Program-made: the position numbers and the translations under genes
Notes under the pieces: model-generated
What the model saw: only the letters and a program-made list of their open reading frames with translations
What the model was told of the DNA's origin: nothing
The model's database searches: none
From: Cryomorphaceae bacterium
GTDB taxonomy: Bacteria > Bacteroidota > Bacteroidia > Flavobacteriales > Flavobacteriaceae
DNA: 54,785 bases
Assembly (NCBI GenBank): GCA_003331265.1
Contig: QOPV01000007.1
Span: forward strand, 1-54,785
Direction: 5' to 3'
Part shown: one piece after another, positions 19,335 to 23,993 of the stretch
Layout of the letters: each line of letters opens with the position of its first letter
How positions within the stretch are numbered: the stretch's first letter is position 1

Positions 19335-20237
19335 ATGAGATTTTTAGTTACAGGTGCAACAGGTTTAATTGGAAGAAAAATCACTTCAATTTTAATTAAA
19401 AGAGGAGATCAAGTAAATGCACTAACGACTAATAAAAAAAATATTAGTAATTCTAGTGAAATAGATTTTTATTTTTGGAATCCTGAATTATGTATTATTG
19501 ATGAAAAATGTTTTAAAGATGTAGATGTTGTAATTAACCTTGCTGGTTCTCCAATTGCTCAATTATGGACAAAAAAAGCAAAAAAATCTATTTTAGAAAG
19601 CAGATTGAAATCAGTCAAACTATTGGAAAGATTATTGCTAAAAAATAATAAAATAAAATATTTCGTTTGTGCTTCTGCAATAGGTATTTATCCATCCAAT
19701 ATGGATATTGAATTTAATGAAGAGTCAAAATATATTTCAAATTCTTTTTTAGGAAATGTTGTAAATAAATGGGAAGAAAGCTGTCAAAATATAGAAAACC
19801 ATAATATCAAAGTTTTAAAACTTAGAATAGGATTAGTACTATCAATGGAAAGCGGATTATTAAAACCCATAGCTATTTCAACAAAGTATTTTCTTGGTTG
19901 TTGGTTTGGAATGGGAAATAATTATTATTCATGGATTCATATTGATGATATTGCACAATCAATTATTTTTTTAATTGATAACAATAAAAGAGGGATTTAT
20001 AATTTAGTTTCTCCAAACCCAATAAAAAGTAAAACCTTTGTTTTAGAGATTGCAAATATTTTTAAATCAAAAGTAATCCTTCCAAGTATCCCTTATAGAA
20101 TCGTTAAATTTTTCTCAGGAAATATGTCAGAATTATTAATATTTAACCAAAAAGTTAGTTCTGAAAAACTGATTTTAGAGGGCTTTAAATTCAAGTTTCC
20201 TGATTTAAGATTAGCACTCAAAAATTTGTTAAAATAA
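19335..20237 (+). CDS. TIGR01777-family NAD(P)-dependent epimerase
   Basis: This 300-residue extended SDR protein of the YfcH/SulA-like group has the nucleotide-binding motif GATGLIG at 7-13. DVVINLAGSPIAQLWTKKAK near 63-84 is the group's hallmark, and CASAIGIYP (about 112-120) replaces the usual Ser-Tyr-Lys region. The C-terminal DUF1731-like segment includes YRIVKFFSGNMSELL and ends SSEKLILEGFKFKFPDL. The substrate is unknown for the whole family. It is probably monocistronic, followed by the sigma-54-like site in front of grpE. Confidence 0.88.
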   Translation: MRFLVTGATGLIGRKITSILIKRGDQVNALTTNKKNISNSSEIDFYFWNPELCIIDEKCFKDVDVVINLAGSPIAQLWTKKAKKSILESRLKSVKLLERLLLKNNKIKYFVCASAIGIYPSNMDIEFNEESKYISNSFLGNVVNKWEESCQNIENHNIKVLKLRIGLVLSMESGLLKPIAISTKYFLGCWFGMGNNYYSWIHIDDIAQSIIFLIDNNKRGIYNLVSPNPIKSKTFVLEIANIFKSKVILPSIPYRIVKFFSGNMSELLIFNQKVSSEKLILEGFKFKFPDLRLALKNLLK

Positions 20238-20267
20238 TTTGATGACATTTTGACAAAATTTGAAAAA

Positions 20268-20283
20268 TGGCAGTACTTTTGCC
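20268..20283 (+). promoter_or_regulatory. Sigma-54-type -24/-12 promoter upstream of grpE
   Basis: TGGCAGTACTTTTGCC has GG (20269-20270) and GC (20281-20282) separated by exactly 10 nt, fitting the TGGCA-N7-TTGC sigma-54 pattern, 23 nt before the grpE ATG. A TGACA-ttt-TGACA direct repeat lies just upstream (about 20243-20255). The same bases also form a 9-bp inverted repeat, so a terminator reading is possible. An activator of the right class is encoded at 22827. Confidence 0.6.
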
Positions 20284-20305
20284 ATTTTAATTTTAAAATA
20301 AATAT

Positions 20306-20806
20306 ATGGGTAATTCAAAACCAAAGTCAAAAAGTAATAAAAAACCTACTTTGAAATCTCAAATAGAAGAATTAAATATTTCTTTTAAAGAAGAGCAAGA
20401 TAAATTTTTAAGACTTTTTGCTGAGTTTGAAAATTATAAAAAAAGAACTTCTAAGGAAAGGTTAGAATTATATAAAACAGCATCTCAAGAACTAATGACT
20501 GCTTTATTGCCTGTAATGGATGATATGGATAGGGCTTCATTGGAGTTTACTAAATCCAAAGAAAAGAGTTTAGTTGAGGGTTTTTCACTAATTAAGAATA
20601 AATTTTCAGAGACATTAAAATCTCAGGGTTTAATTATAATCCAAGTGAACAAAGGAGATGAATTCGATCCTGAAATTCACGAAGCAATTACACAGATTCC
20701 TGCTGAAGATAAAAAGATGATAGGAAGAATTATTGATGTTATCGAATTTGGATATAAATTAGGAGAAAAAATCATACGATATCCAAAAGTTGTTGTAGGT
20801 AAATAA
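20306..20806 (+). CDS. grpE: Nucleotide exchange factor GrpE
   Basis: This 166-residue co-chaperone releases ADP from DnaK. A lysine-rich head (1-20) leads into a long coiled helix (about 20-75) with LRLFAEFENYKKRTSKER, the GrpE signature. The C-terminal beta domain has DEFDPEIHEAITQIP and ends YKLGEKIIRYPKVVVGK. It is slightly short compared with the E. coli protein (197). It is first in a grpE-dnaJ unit with a 10-nt gap, and a sigma-54-like element precedes it. No dnaK is present in the window. Confidence 0.95.
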   Translation: MGNSKPKSKSNKKPTLKSQIEELNISFKEEQDKFLRLFAEFENYKKRTSKERLELYKTASQELMTALLPVMDDMDRASLEFTKSKEKSLVEGFSLIKNKFSETLKSQGLIIIQVNKGDEFDPEIHEAITQIPAEDKKMIGRIIDVIEFGYKLGEKIIRYPKVVVGK

Positions 20807-20816
20807 AATTAAAATC

Positions 20817-21923
20817 ATGAAGGAAGATTATTATGAAATTTTAGGAGTTAGTAAATCTGCTTCAGCCGGTGACATAAAGAAAGCTTACAGAAAAATGGCT
20901 ATTAAATATCACCCCGATAAAAATCCTGGTGATTCAACTGCTGAAGATAATTTTAAAAAAGCTGCCGAAGCTTATGAGGTTTTAGGTAATCAAGATAAAA
21001 GATCAAAATATGATCAATTTGGTCACTCTGCATTTGATGGTAATGGTGGGTTTGGAGGTGGAGGAATGAATATGGATGACATATTCAGTCAATTTGGTGA
21101 TATATTTGGAGGAGCTTTTAGTGGTTTTGGTGGATTTGGAGGATCTAGCCAAGGAAGATCCAAAGGCAGTAACCTAAGAATTAGAGTTTCCTTAGATCTT
21201 AAAGAGATTGTACTAGGAGTTGAGAAAAAAATTAAAGTTAAAAGAAAAATTAAAGCACAAGGAGTCACCTACAAAACTTGCCCTAATTGCAATGGATCAG
21301 GTCAGGTTACCAGAATTACAAATACTATTTTAGGAAGAATGCAATCTGCAAGTACATGTCCAACATGTAATGGATCAGGTCAAGTAGTTTCTAATAGACC
21401 TTCAAATTCCGATTCCAATGGTTTAATTTCATCCGAAGAGACAGTACTTGTAAAAATTCCTGCTGGAGTTGAGGACGGGATGCAATTAAAAGTAAGTGGA
21501 AAGGGAAATGAATCTGCAGGAAATGGAATTCCAGGTGATTTGATAGTATTGATTCAAGAAAATGAACACCCAAATTTAAAAAGAGAAGGTAATAATTTAC
21601 ATTACGATTTATACATAAGTATTTCTGATGCTGTTTTAGGAGTTTCTAAAGAAATAGAAACTGTAACAGGAAATGTAAGAATTAAATTGGAGTCAGGTAT
21701 TCAGTCAGGAAAAATTTTAAGACTTCGCGGTAAAGGGCTTTCCAGCATAAATTCTTATAGCTCGGGCGATTTATTAGTACATATTAATGTTTGGACTCCA
21801 AAAACATTAAATAAAGAGCAAAAAATATTTTTCGAGGAAATGAAAAATAATGACAATTTTATTCCTTCACCTGAAAAAGGAGATAAATCATTTTTTGAAA
21901 AAGTAAAAGATATGTTTTCTTAA
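20817..21923 (+). CDS. dnaJ: Chaperone DnaJ with a reduced zinc-finger region
   Basis: This 368-residue J-domain co-chaperone of DnaK has a J domain at 1-70 with HPD at 32-34 and a Gly/Phe-rich linker at about 75-110. Only two CxxCxGxG repeats follow, CPNCNGSG (155-162) and CPTCNGSG (181-188), where most DnaJ proteins have four. The C-terminal substrate domains (about 205-350) are intact, with VKIPAGVEDGMQLKVSGKG and DLYISISDAVLG. Loss of repeats 1 and 4 looks lineage-typical for Flavobacteriia from memory and leaves one possible zinc site. It is co-transcribed with grpE. Confidence 0.94.
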   Translation: MKEDYYEILGVSKSASAGDIKKAYRKMAIKYHPDKNPGDSTAEDNFKKAAEAYEVLGNQDKRSKYDQFGHSAFDGNGGFGGGGMNMDDIFSQFGDIFGGAFSGFGGFGGSSQGRSKGSNLRIRVSLDLKEIVLGVEKKIKVKRKIKAQGVTYKTCPNCNGSGQVTRITNTILGRMQSASTCPTCNGSGQVVSNRPSNSDSNGLISSEETVLVKIPAGVEDGMQLKVSGKGNESAGNGIPGDLIVLIQENEHPNLKREGNNLHYDLYISISDAVLGVSKEIETVTGNVRIKLESGIQSGKILRLRGKGLSSINSYSSGDLLVHINVWTPKTLNKEQKIFFEEMKNNDNFIPSPEKGDKSFFEKVKDMFS

Positions 21924-22826: not shown

Positions 22827-23993
22827 ATGTCAAAAATTTTAATAATAGAAGATGAAGAGTCTATAAGACGAGTTTTAAAGAAAGTTTTAATTGATGAAAA
22901 TCAATCTTTTAAAATTATAGAGGCTTGCGATGGCGTCCAAGCTATTGATATGGTAAAATCAAACAAGTTGGATTTGATTTTATGCGATATTAAAATGCCA
23001 AAAAAAGATGGAATTGAAGTACTTCGATTCTTAATGAGCGATTATCCTGAAATTCCTGTTATTATGATTTCTGGTCATGGGGATTTAGAGACAGCTGTAG
23101 AATCTATGAGGTTAGGTGCTTTTGATTATATCTCAAAGCCCCCTGACCTAAATAGATTATTGAATTCTGTTAGAGCAGCTCTAAAAAATAATATTTTTAG
23201 AAAAAAAAATCAATCTTCCTCAAAAAGATCAAAAGATTTTAAAATTATAGGTGAATCAATTAGTATAAAAAAAATAAATAGGATTATTGAAAAAGTTGCT
23301 AAAACAAATGCTAAAGTTTTAATTCTTGGTCCAAATGGATCTGGAAAAGAATTAGTAGCTAATCAAATACATTTGAATAGTTCAAGATTTCAAGGGGCTT
23401 TTATTGAAGTTAATTGCGCTGCAATTCCCTCTGAATTAATTGAAAGTGAATTATTTGGACATATTAAAGGAGCATTTACTTCTGCTGTAAAAGATAAAGT
23501 TGGAAAATTTGAGGCAGCTAATGGTGGGACAATTTTTCTTGATGAAATAGGAGATATGAGTTTATCAGCTCAATCTAAAGTTTTAAGAGCTTTACAAGAA
23601 CATAAAATACAAAGAGTTGGAAGTGAAAAAGATTTAATTGTTGATGTTAGAGTTATTGCAGCAACTAATAAGAATTTAAAAGATGAAATTATTAAAAATA
23701 ATTTCAGAGAAGATTTGTTCCATAGACTAGCTGTTATTGAAATTAAGGTTCCATCCTTGAACGAGAGGATATCAGACATTCCAATATTAGTGGACCATTT
23801 TTTAAAATTAATTTCGGTTGAAAACAATAATGAATTAAAAAAAATAGAATCTAATGCTGTAAAAAAACTCAAAAATTTTAATTGGACTGGAAATGTTAGG
23901 GAGTTACGAAATGTAATTGAAAGATTATTAATTCTAAGTGAAAATTCAATTATTACAATAGATGATGTAATAAATTACTCAGGTAAAAAATAA
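22827..23993 (+). CDS. Sigma-54-dependent response regulator lacking a DNA-binding domain
   Basis: This 388-residue NtrC-like activator has a receiver domain at 1-120 with phospho-acceptor Asp54 (LCDIKMP) and SGHGD plus a Lys104 switch region. An AAA+ domain follows at about 138-370, with Walker A GPNGSGKE (168-175), the sigma-54 contact loop GAFTSA (215-220, for the usual GAFTGA), Walker B near [13 protein letters not shown] and [14 protein letters not shown] at the end. It stops after the AAA+ C-terminal helices, with no Fis-type helix-turn-helix. It may act without binding DNA. A sigma-54-like site precedes grpE 2.5 kb upstream. The kinase is not in the window. Confidence 0.92.

Follow-up and report, generated by a model that had tools for sequence, protein, structure and literature searches.

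A probable sigma-54 promoter and a conserved TGWCA box pair in front of grpE-dnaJ and other chaperone genes of Bacteroidota

Sigma-54 promoters and chaperone genes

Classic sigma-54 promoters, namely those of the NtrC and PspF type, combine a -24/-12 core with an upstream dyad site and an activator carrying a Fis-type helix-turn-helix (HTH). Sigma-54 requires an activator, the enhancer sites usually lying at 80–150 bp, and sigma-54 activators that have no DNA-binding domain also exist. With respect to Bacteroidota, we know of no explanation of how the chaperone genes are switched on, and a literature search, conducted mostly at the level of title listings, yielded no paper on an activator or an upstream site for their chaperone promoters.

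The involvement of sigma-54 itself has been described. Transcription starts were mapped in Flavobacterium psychrophilum, and a -24/-12 motif (SM4) was found, the genes listed under it including grpE-dnaJ, groES-groEL, dnaK, lon, htpG, clpB, and genes for surface proteins (Guerin et al., 2021; PMC9723704). In the accessible text of that study, mutagenesis of SM4 concerned one gliding operon, the activators were left open, with three PF00158 proteins named as possible candidates, and the conditions given were blood agar, osmotic pressure, plasma, and fresh water, heat not being named (PMC9723704). Furthermore, a survey published in 2025 reported that, in Flavobacteriia, Bacteroidia, and Cytophagia, the sigma-54 targets obtained by computation are enriched in GroES, GrpE, DnaJ, and DnaK, and stated that the promoter specificity of the activators was not available for all of its organisms; the terms "UAS" and "upstream activat" do not occur in its main text (PMC12316311).

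The locus described here has the same gene and the same -24/-12 type as SM4 of F. psychrophilum, for which the accessible text gives neither an upstream activator site nor a named activator of the chaperone promoters (PMC9723704). Sigma-54 control of grpE is thus already published, although its trigger at chaperone genes was not found in the literature searched; the additions made here are a box pair upstream of the promoter, the spacing of that pair, and a candidate activator.

The grpE-dnaJ promoter region

The DNA analysed, referred to below as the window, is a stretch of 54,785 nucleotides from a Cryomorphaceae bacterium, whose genome assembly (G000) comprises 1.53 Mb in 43 contigs and is 80% complete. 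The features of the locus are collected in Table 1. Between the stop codon of an epimerase-family gene (20237) and the grpE start codon, the forward strand carries, in this order, the box pair TGACATTTTGACA, 12 bases, TGGCA, 6 bases, TTGC, and 23 bases. A first-pass annotation of the same DNA had recognized the TGGCA/TTGC motif, TGGCAGTACTTTTGC (20268–20282), but had given its gap as 7 nt where there are 6. Its other readings of the letters were borne out: GG (20269–20270) and GC (20281–20282) are exactly 10 nt apart, 23 nt separate GC from the ATG (20306), two copies of TGACA stand just upstream (20243–20247 and 20251–20255), and a 9-bp inverted repeat is present, with the arms AAAATGGCA (20264–20272) and TGCCATTTT (20280–20288).

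Table 1. Features of the grpE-dnaJ locus, with positions counted from the first letter of the window.
Feature	Position	Strand	Remarks
Preceding gene, epimerase family (DUF1731)	19335–20237	+	PF01370, PF08338
Box pair TGACA-TTT-TGACA (TGACATTTTGACA)	20243–20255	+	Proposed activator-binding site (enhancer) at -51 to -39, counted from the predicted start
9-bp inverted repeat around the promoter	20264–20288	+	Full stem not conserved
TGGCA, putative sigma-54 -24 element	20268–20272	+	In 117/117 family grpE regions
TACTTTTG, overlapping match to sigma-A -7 box TAnnTTTG	20274–20281	+	102/117 grpE, 0/28 dnaK
TTGC, putative -12 element	20279–20282	+	GG-GC spacing 10; TTG 117/117, GC 98/117
Expected sigma-54 start, 12 nt past the C of GC	20294	+	Predicted from spacing; 12-nt leader
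grpE	20306–20806	+	PF01025, E 1.8e-41
dnaJ	20817–21923	+	PF00226, PF01556, PF00684
EBP-A, receiver and AAA+ sigma-54 activator	22827–23993	+	PF00072, PF00158, PF25601; no HTH; GAFTSA

Counts within the window say little by themselves. TGGCA-N6-TTGC was found once against 0.18 expected, as was TGWCA-N3-TGWCA, and one is also present in 15 and 16 of 100 shuffled sequences, respectively; a generic promoter scan, with 22 sites against 21.7 expected, was uninformative. Across the source genome, TGGCA-N6-TTG has 47 matches (34 inside open frames of 90 or more codons, the other 13 outside) against 12 for the reversed pattern, a weak control and no proof of excess, since the reversal creates CG, which is rare in such genomes. 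Each half-motif alone is therefore mildly surprising, and it is conservation that argues for both being real.

For this comparison, 120 genomes of the family were sampled; 117 of them yielded a grpE gene, and the upstream region was taken from each of these; within 420 bases upstream, sites of the form TGGC-N8-TG were considered and the one with the best boxes was kept. The alignment of grpE upstream regions, which the first-pass annotation had proposed as a way of telling a promoter from a terminator, came out on the side of the promoter: every one of the 117 regions has TGGCA and TTG separated by 6 nt, the nine-pair stem forms in 1, and GC at -12 is kept in only 98. The longer pattern TTGACA-N12-TGGCA-N6-TTG occurs once per genome in 79 of the 120 family genomes, and, by comparison of the listings by eye, its matches sit at grpE save for two (G079:C20 and G047:C67). 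With the reversed pattern as control, 6 matches were obtained, and a single genome (G025) accounts for them all. In the genomes of named species, mostly Flavobacteriaceae, the two-box pattern was found in at least 118 stretches. Among the 80 of these that were listed, 72 precede grpE as judged by tblastn and one more does so by a cut-off start (L170), 5 precede dnaK as judged by eye, and 2 end too early to tell. Upstream of dnaK, TGGCA-N6-TTG was present in 28 of 28 genomes.

The inverted repeat had led the first-pass annotation to offer a competing reading, a terminator for the gene upstream; this would be an intrinsic one, with the repeat as its transcript hairpin. The arms are indeed perfect in the window, and the inner five pairs are able to form in 62 of the 117 relatives. 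Compensating changes that keep only the stem, which that annotation had named as the observation favoring a terminator, are absent from these five pairs, with zero both-sides changes among 117; each of the outer four pairs forms in 35–44 regions with 6–22 both-sides changes, about what chance gives for AT-rich flanks. Furthermore, the fold is no better than that of shuffled sequences (32 of 200 at least as good, z -1.0), a terminator scan found no such site at the inverted repeat, and no conserved stem leads into a run of T. With all nine pairs in a single region of 117 and TGGCA-N6-TTG in every one, what is conserved is the linear promoter; the terminator reading, against which conservation, folding, and scan all speak, was rejected as very improbable.

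A different question is posed by the bases between the two elements. Across the grpE regions they are conserved far beyond what sigma-54 requires; GTACT among them, the GCCA of the inner 3′ arm, and TACTTTTG with the G and C next to it are all kept more than it calls for. TACTTTTG is a perfect match to the -7 box of the Bacteroidota housekeeping promoter that the first-pass annotation had not mentioned; the conservation of GTACT possibly reflects such an overlapping sigma-A box. The housekeeping consensus is TTTG at -33 and TAnnTTTG at -7, which TTTG-N21-TACTTTTG at 20249–20281 fits (PMC7366714, accessible part). Sigma-A might therefore read TTG(ACA) together with TACTTTTG, the likeness to sigma-54 being accidental, or the two sites might overlap, with sigma-A providing a basal level. 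TAnnTTTG is kept in 102 of the 117 grpE regions, the octamer being at chance level in the window as a whole (110 found, 104 expected). However, TGGCA is invariant although nothing in a sigma-A promoter calls for it, the 15 regions without TAnnTTTG still keep TGGCA-N6-TTG, none of the 28 dnaK promoters, which share the boxes, contains TAnnTTTG, and it was to the sigma-54 motif that the grpE-dnaJ start of F. psychrophilum was attributed (PMC9723704, accessible part). We regard the sigma-A alternative as improbable; in its pure form it is not the best reading, given the invariance of TGGCA and the dnaK promoters, and TACTTTTG as a second, basal promoter within a dual arrangement is a possible addition to the sigma-54 reading.

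The element upstream of grpE is thus very probably the sigma-54 (-24/-12) promoter of a grpE-dnaJ operon. The source genome encodes one RpoN of 480 aa with PF00309, PF04963, and PF04552; rpoN was found in 120 of 120 family genomes, so that no rpoN-free relative is available for comparison. Together with the conservation of the core and the start mapped in F. psychrophilum (PMC9723704, accessible part), this upholds the proposal of the first-pass annotation that the co-chaperones are driven by sigma-54, and the comparison across genomes supports the view that such control is not limited to the lineage of the source organism.

The box pair and its distance from the promoter

Searched for in 12 genomes, TGWCA-N3-TGWCA-N12-TGGC had 19 matches, which come from 11 of the genomes and all precede grpE (11), dnaK (7), or htpG (1). 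Extended to TGGCA, the pattern was also looked for in 247 genomes of the class, 51 of which have it, with 55 matches in all. The reversed patterns gave zero matches in both scans, which is again a weak control, as the reversal makes the rare CG. Thirty of the 55 class loci were examined, with genes named by sequence reading and Pfam in agreement for the 9 proteins scanned: 29 precede proteostasis genes, namely grpE (10), htpG (8), thioredoxin (trxA; 5), dnaK (3), lon (2), and groES (1), and the 30th (L464) shows no gene before the locus ends, approximately 280 bases further on. The five occurrences before thioredoxin (L435–L438 and L440) come from one genus of the class. At groES, a TGTCA or TGACA box stands 10–13 bp before TGGCA in 26 of 28 genomes.

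Within the source genome, 11 sigma-54-like sites were inspected with 110 bp of upstream sequence, including 10 of the 13 sites outside open frames; the other three, one in L261 and two in L308, have no gene ahead. Boxes were present only at grpE, dnaK, and groES, and no TGWCA box was found within 110 bp of the sites at lon, four sites before secreted-looking starts, and three unassigned sites. The four sites in question (L247, L259, L303, and L320) precede genes whose products have secreted- or lipoprotein-like starts. The lon site (L251) lies about 104 bp before the start codon; in two other genomes of the class, lon does have boxes.

The distance of the pair from the -24 box is nearly fixed. 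Pairs scoring at least 9 of 10 were accepted and, where there were several, the one nearest 12 bp was chosen. At grpE (117 genomes), the distance is 12 bp in 108 cases, 13 bp in 6, 11 bp in 1, and 54 bp in 1, with no pair in 1; at dnaK (28 genomes), it is 12 bp in 22 and 13 bp in 3, followed by single values of 33, 44, and 54 bp. The 27 genomes with a -24 box before groES (no such site was found in G023) have perfect pairs, TGGCA being allowed as a half, at 32–34 bp in 13 cases, at 42 bp in 1, and at 45 bp in 1. No perfect groES pair occurs elsewhere within 100 bp, and 12 of the 27 have none at all, nine of these 12 showing a near-pair at 12–13 bp. The pairs farther out are displaced from the 12-bp position by about 2, 3, and 4 helical turns (21, 31.5, and 42 bp), a displacement by one turn being seen at none of the three genes. 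The probability of the far pairs lying so near to multiples of 10.5 bp from 12 is 6e-5 under uniform spacing, a figure that comes from a rough, post hoc test on seven values in related genomes. Most of the groES pairs at 32–34 bp lie inside a hairpin-like repeat, so that their position may be held by the hairpin. By eye, this repeat is followed by T in L378, L383, L384, L387, L389, L392, L394, L396, L397, L399, and L404, and may serve the preceding gene as a terminator.

A spacing of this kind suits a protein whose position around the helix is fixed with respect to the polymerase, and far pairs near whole turns are as expected of a DNA-bound activator facing it. The boxes are probably an activator (enhancer) site, as judged from their position, spacing, and gene specificity. 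Against this stands their location at -51 to -39, much nearer than the usual 80–150 bp, and the close, almost rigid 12-bp spacing is what a repressor or another polymerase-touching regulator, distinct from an enhancer-binding protein, would also show. One reduced genome of the class (G144, 0.49 Mb) gives a mixed picture: its grpE keeps TGTCA-N3-TGTCA (L521, 9067–9079), a pair that occurs nowhere else in the part covered (370 of 490 kb), and the TGGCA there is gone, as a separate factor at the boxes would allow. No rpoN, dnaK, groES, or htpG was found in those 370 kb; lon has, by eye, TGGTA-N6-TTG, and there is one strong activator gene, which is EBP-B-like (see below). Either the boxes work without sigma-54 in G144, or the promoter is decaying. 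However, pairs at about 2, 3, and 4 turns are in keeping with an activator whose working distance varies, transcription by sigma-54 depends on an activator, and the boxed promoters of the source genome are those of grpE, dnaK, and groES. A separate factor at the boxes is accordingly considered unlikely, and the enhancer reading is retained.

Candidate activators and a proposed mechanism

Two genes with strong PF00158 matches, EBP-A and EBP-B, are present in the assembled part of the source genome. EBP-A contains the AAA+ sigma-54 interaction domain (PF00158, E 3.3e-67) and was the activator to which the first-pass annotation had linked the promoter. Its proximity to grpE is a recurrent feature: in 16 of the 18 genomes compared, the exceptions being G023 and G113, the strand that carries grpE also has, 2.5–7 kb further downstream, a strong PF00158 gene of 387–403 codons. 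As a natural binder of the TGACA boxes, though, EBP-A fares less well: Pfam recognized no C-terminal DNA-binding domain, the protein ending after the AAA+ lid, and its loop reads GAFTSA in place of GAFTGA. Because activators without a DNA-binding domain exist, this absence lowers the fit of EBP-A to the boxes more than its membership in the family. GAFTSA was seen in 15 of 15 members read, EBP-A included, whereas GAFTGA was called invariant and essential in the 2025 survey (PMC12316311, accessible part). EBP-A could activate grpE-dnaJ from solution or with a DNA-binding partner, as its place downstream of grpE would suggest; with neither an HTH nor GAFTGA, and with the boxes left unexplained, we consider this doubtful.

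EBP-B, a protein of 415 aa encoded on another contig (C28, L329), is an AAA+ activator with GAFTGA, without a receiver domain, and with a C-terminal Fis-type HTH (HTH_8, PF02954, E 1.2e-13). The source genome thus holds a sigma-54 activator that has both the canonical loop and a DNA-binding domain. Of 18 genomes, 17 (all but G023) have a strong PF00158 gene upstream of groES, at a distance of approximately 2.3–3.3 kb. The six of these groES-linked activators that were read (G000, G046, G040, G014, G055, and G032) all have the same Fis-type end, ERTLYRK, and the others were assigned to EBP-B by place. Of the 247 class genomes, 245 contain a match to EBP-B at E ≤ 1e-60, a few weak ones being possibly paralogues; with EBP-B nearly universal, co-occurrence with the element cannot discriminate. 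Against EBP-B stands one genome (G219) that has the element before trxA and a weak best match to EBP-B (2.3e-65). EBP-B alone among the strong activator genes of the assembled part has a known binding domain, and it is on this ground proposed for the boxed promoters; we give it somewhat better than even chances of being the protein that binds the boxes. The reading as a whole, namely a sigma-54 promoter with a TGWCA-N3-TGWCA enhancer and EBP-B as the likeliest binder, is quite probable.

On this reading, RNA polymerase with sigma-54 would wait at TGGCA-N6-TTGC as a closed complex, and an enhancer-binding ATPase docked at the boxes would open the complex when protein folding fails. The docking protein would most likely be EBP-B, encoded near groES. 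The same arrangement would serve dnaK, groES, and htpG, as well as lon and thioredoxin in other families of the class, with the box pair and promoter forming a cis-element common to the genes of a sigma-54 heat-shock regulon. More speculatively, EBP-A may rather serve the box-less sigma-54 promoters, or act from solution. Beyond the sequence, conservation, spacing, gene specificity, and synteny observed, we infer for the source organism both the use of sigma-54 and a heat signal. A bolder version can be offered tentatively, and we consider it possible though less likely than not: a heat-shock circuit common to the class, in which EBP-B, bound to the boxes in one helical register, opens grpE-dnaJ, dnaK, groESL, htpG, lon, and trxA, is itself sensorless, being held by chaperones and freed when these are busy, and in which EBP-A serves the box-less promoters of surface-protein genes.

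With a conserved box pair and a candidate protein linked to groES, the trigger of chaperone expression becomes an answerable question. The proposed system would share with sigma-32 and HrcA/CIRCE heat-shock control the same target genes, and would differ from it in the sigma factor and the signals. With the classic NtrC and PspF type, it would share the -24/-12 core, the dyad upstream site, and the activator with a Fis-type HTH, EBP-B resembling PspF in having no receiver domain. Unlike in that type, the upstream site would abut the polymerase, at -51 to -39 and a near-fixed spacing, and the output would be chaperones. If true, this would be an unusual use of sigma-54, in which an enhancer site set against the polymerase and a receiver-less activator serve a general stress response.
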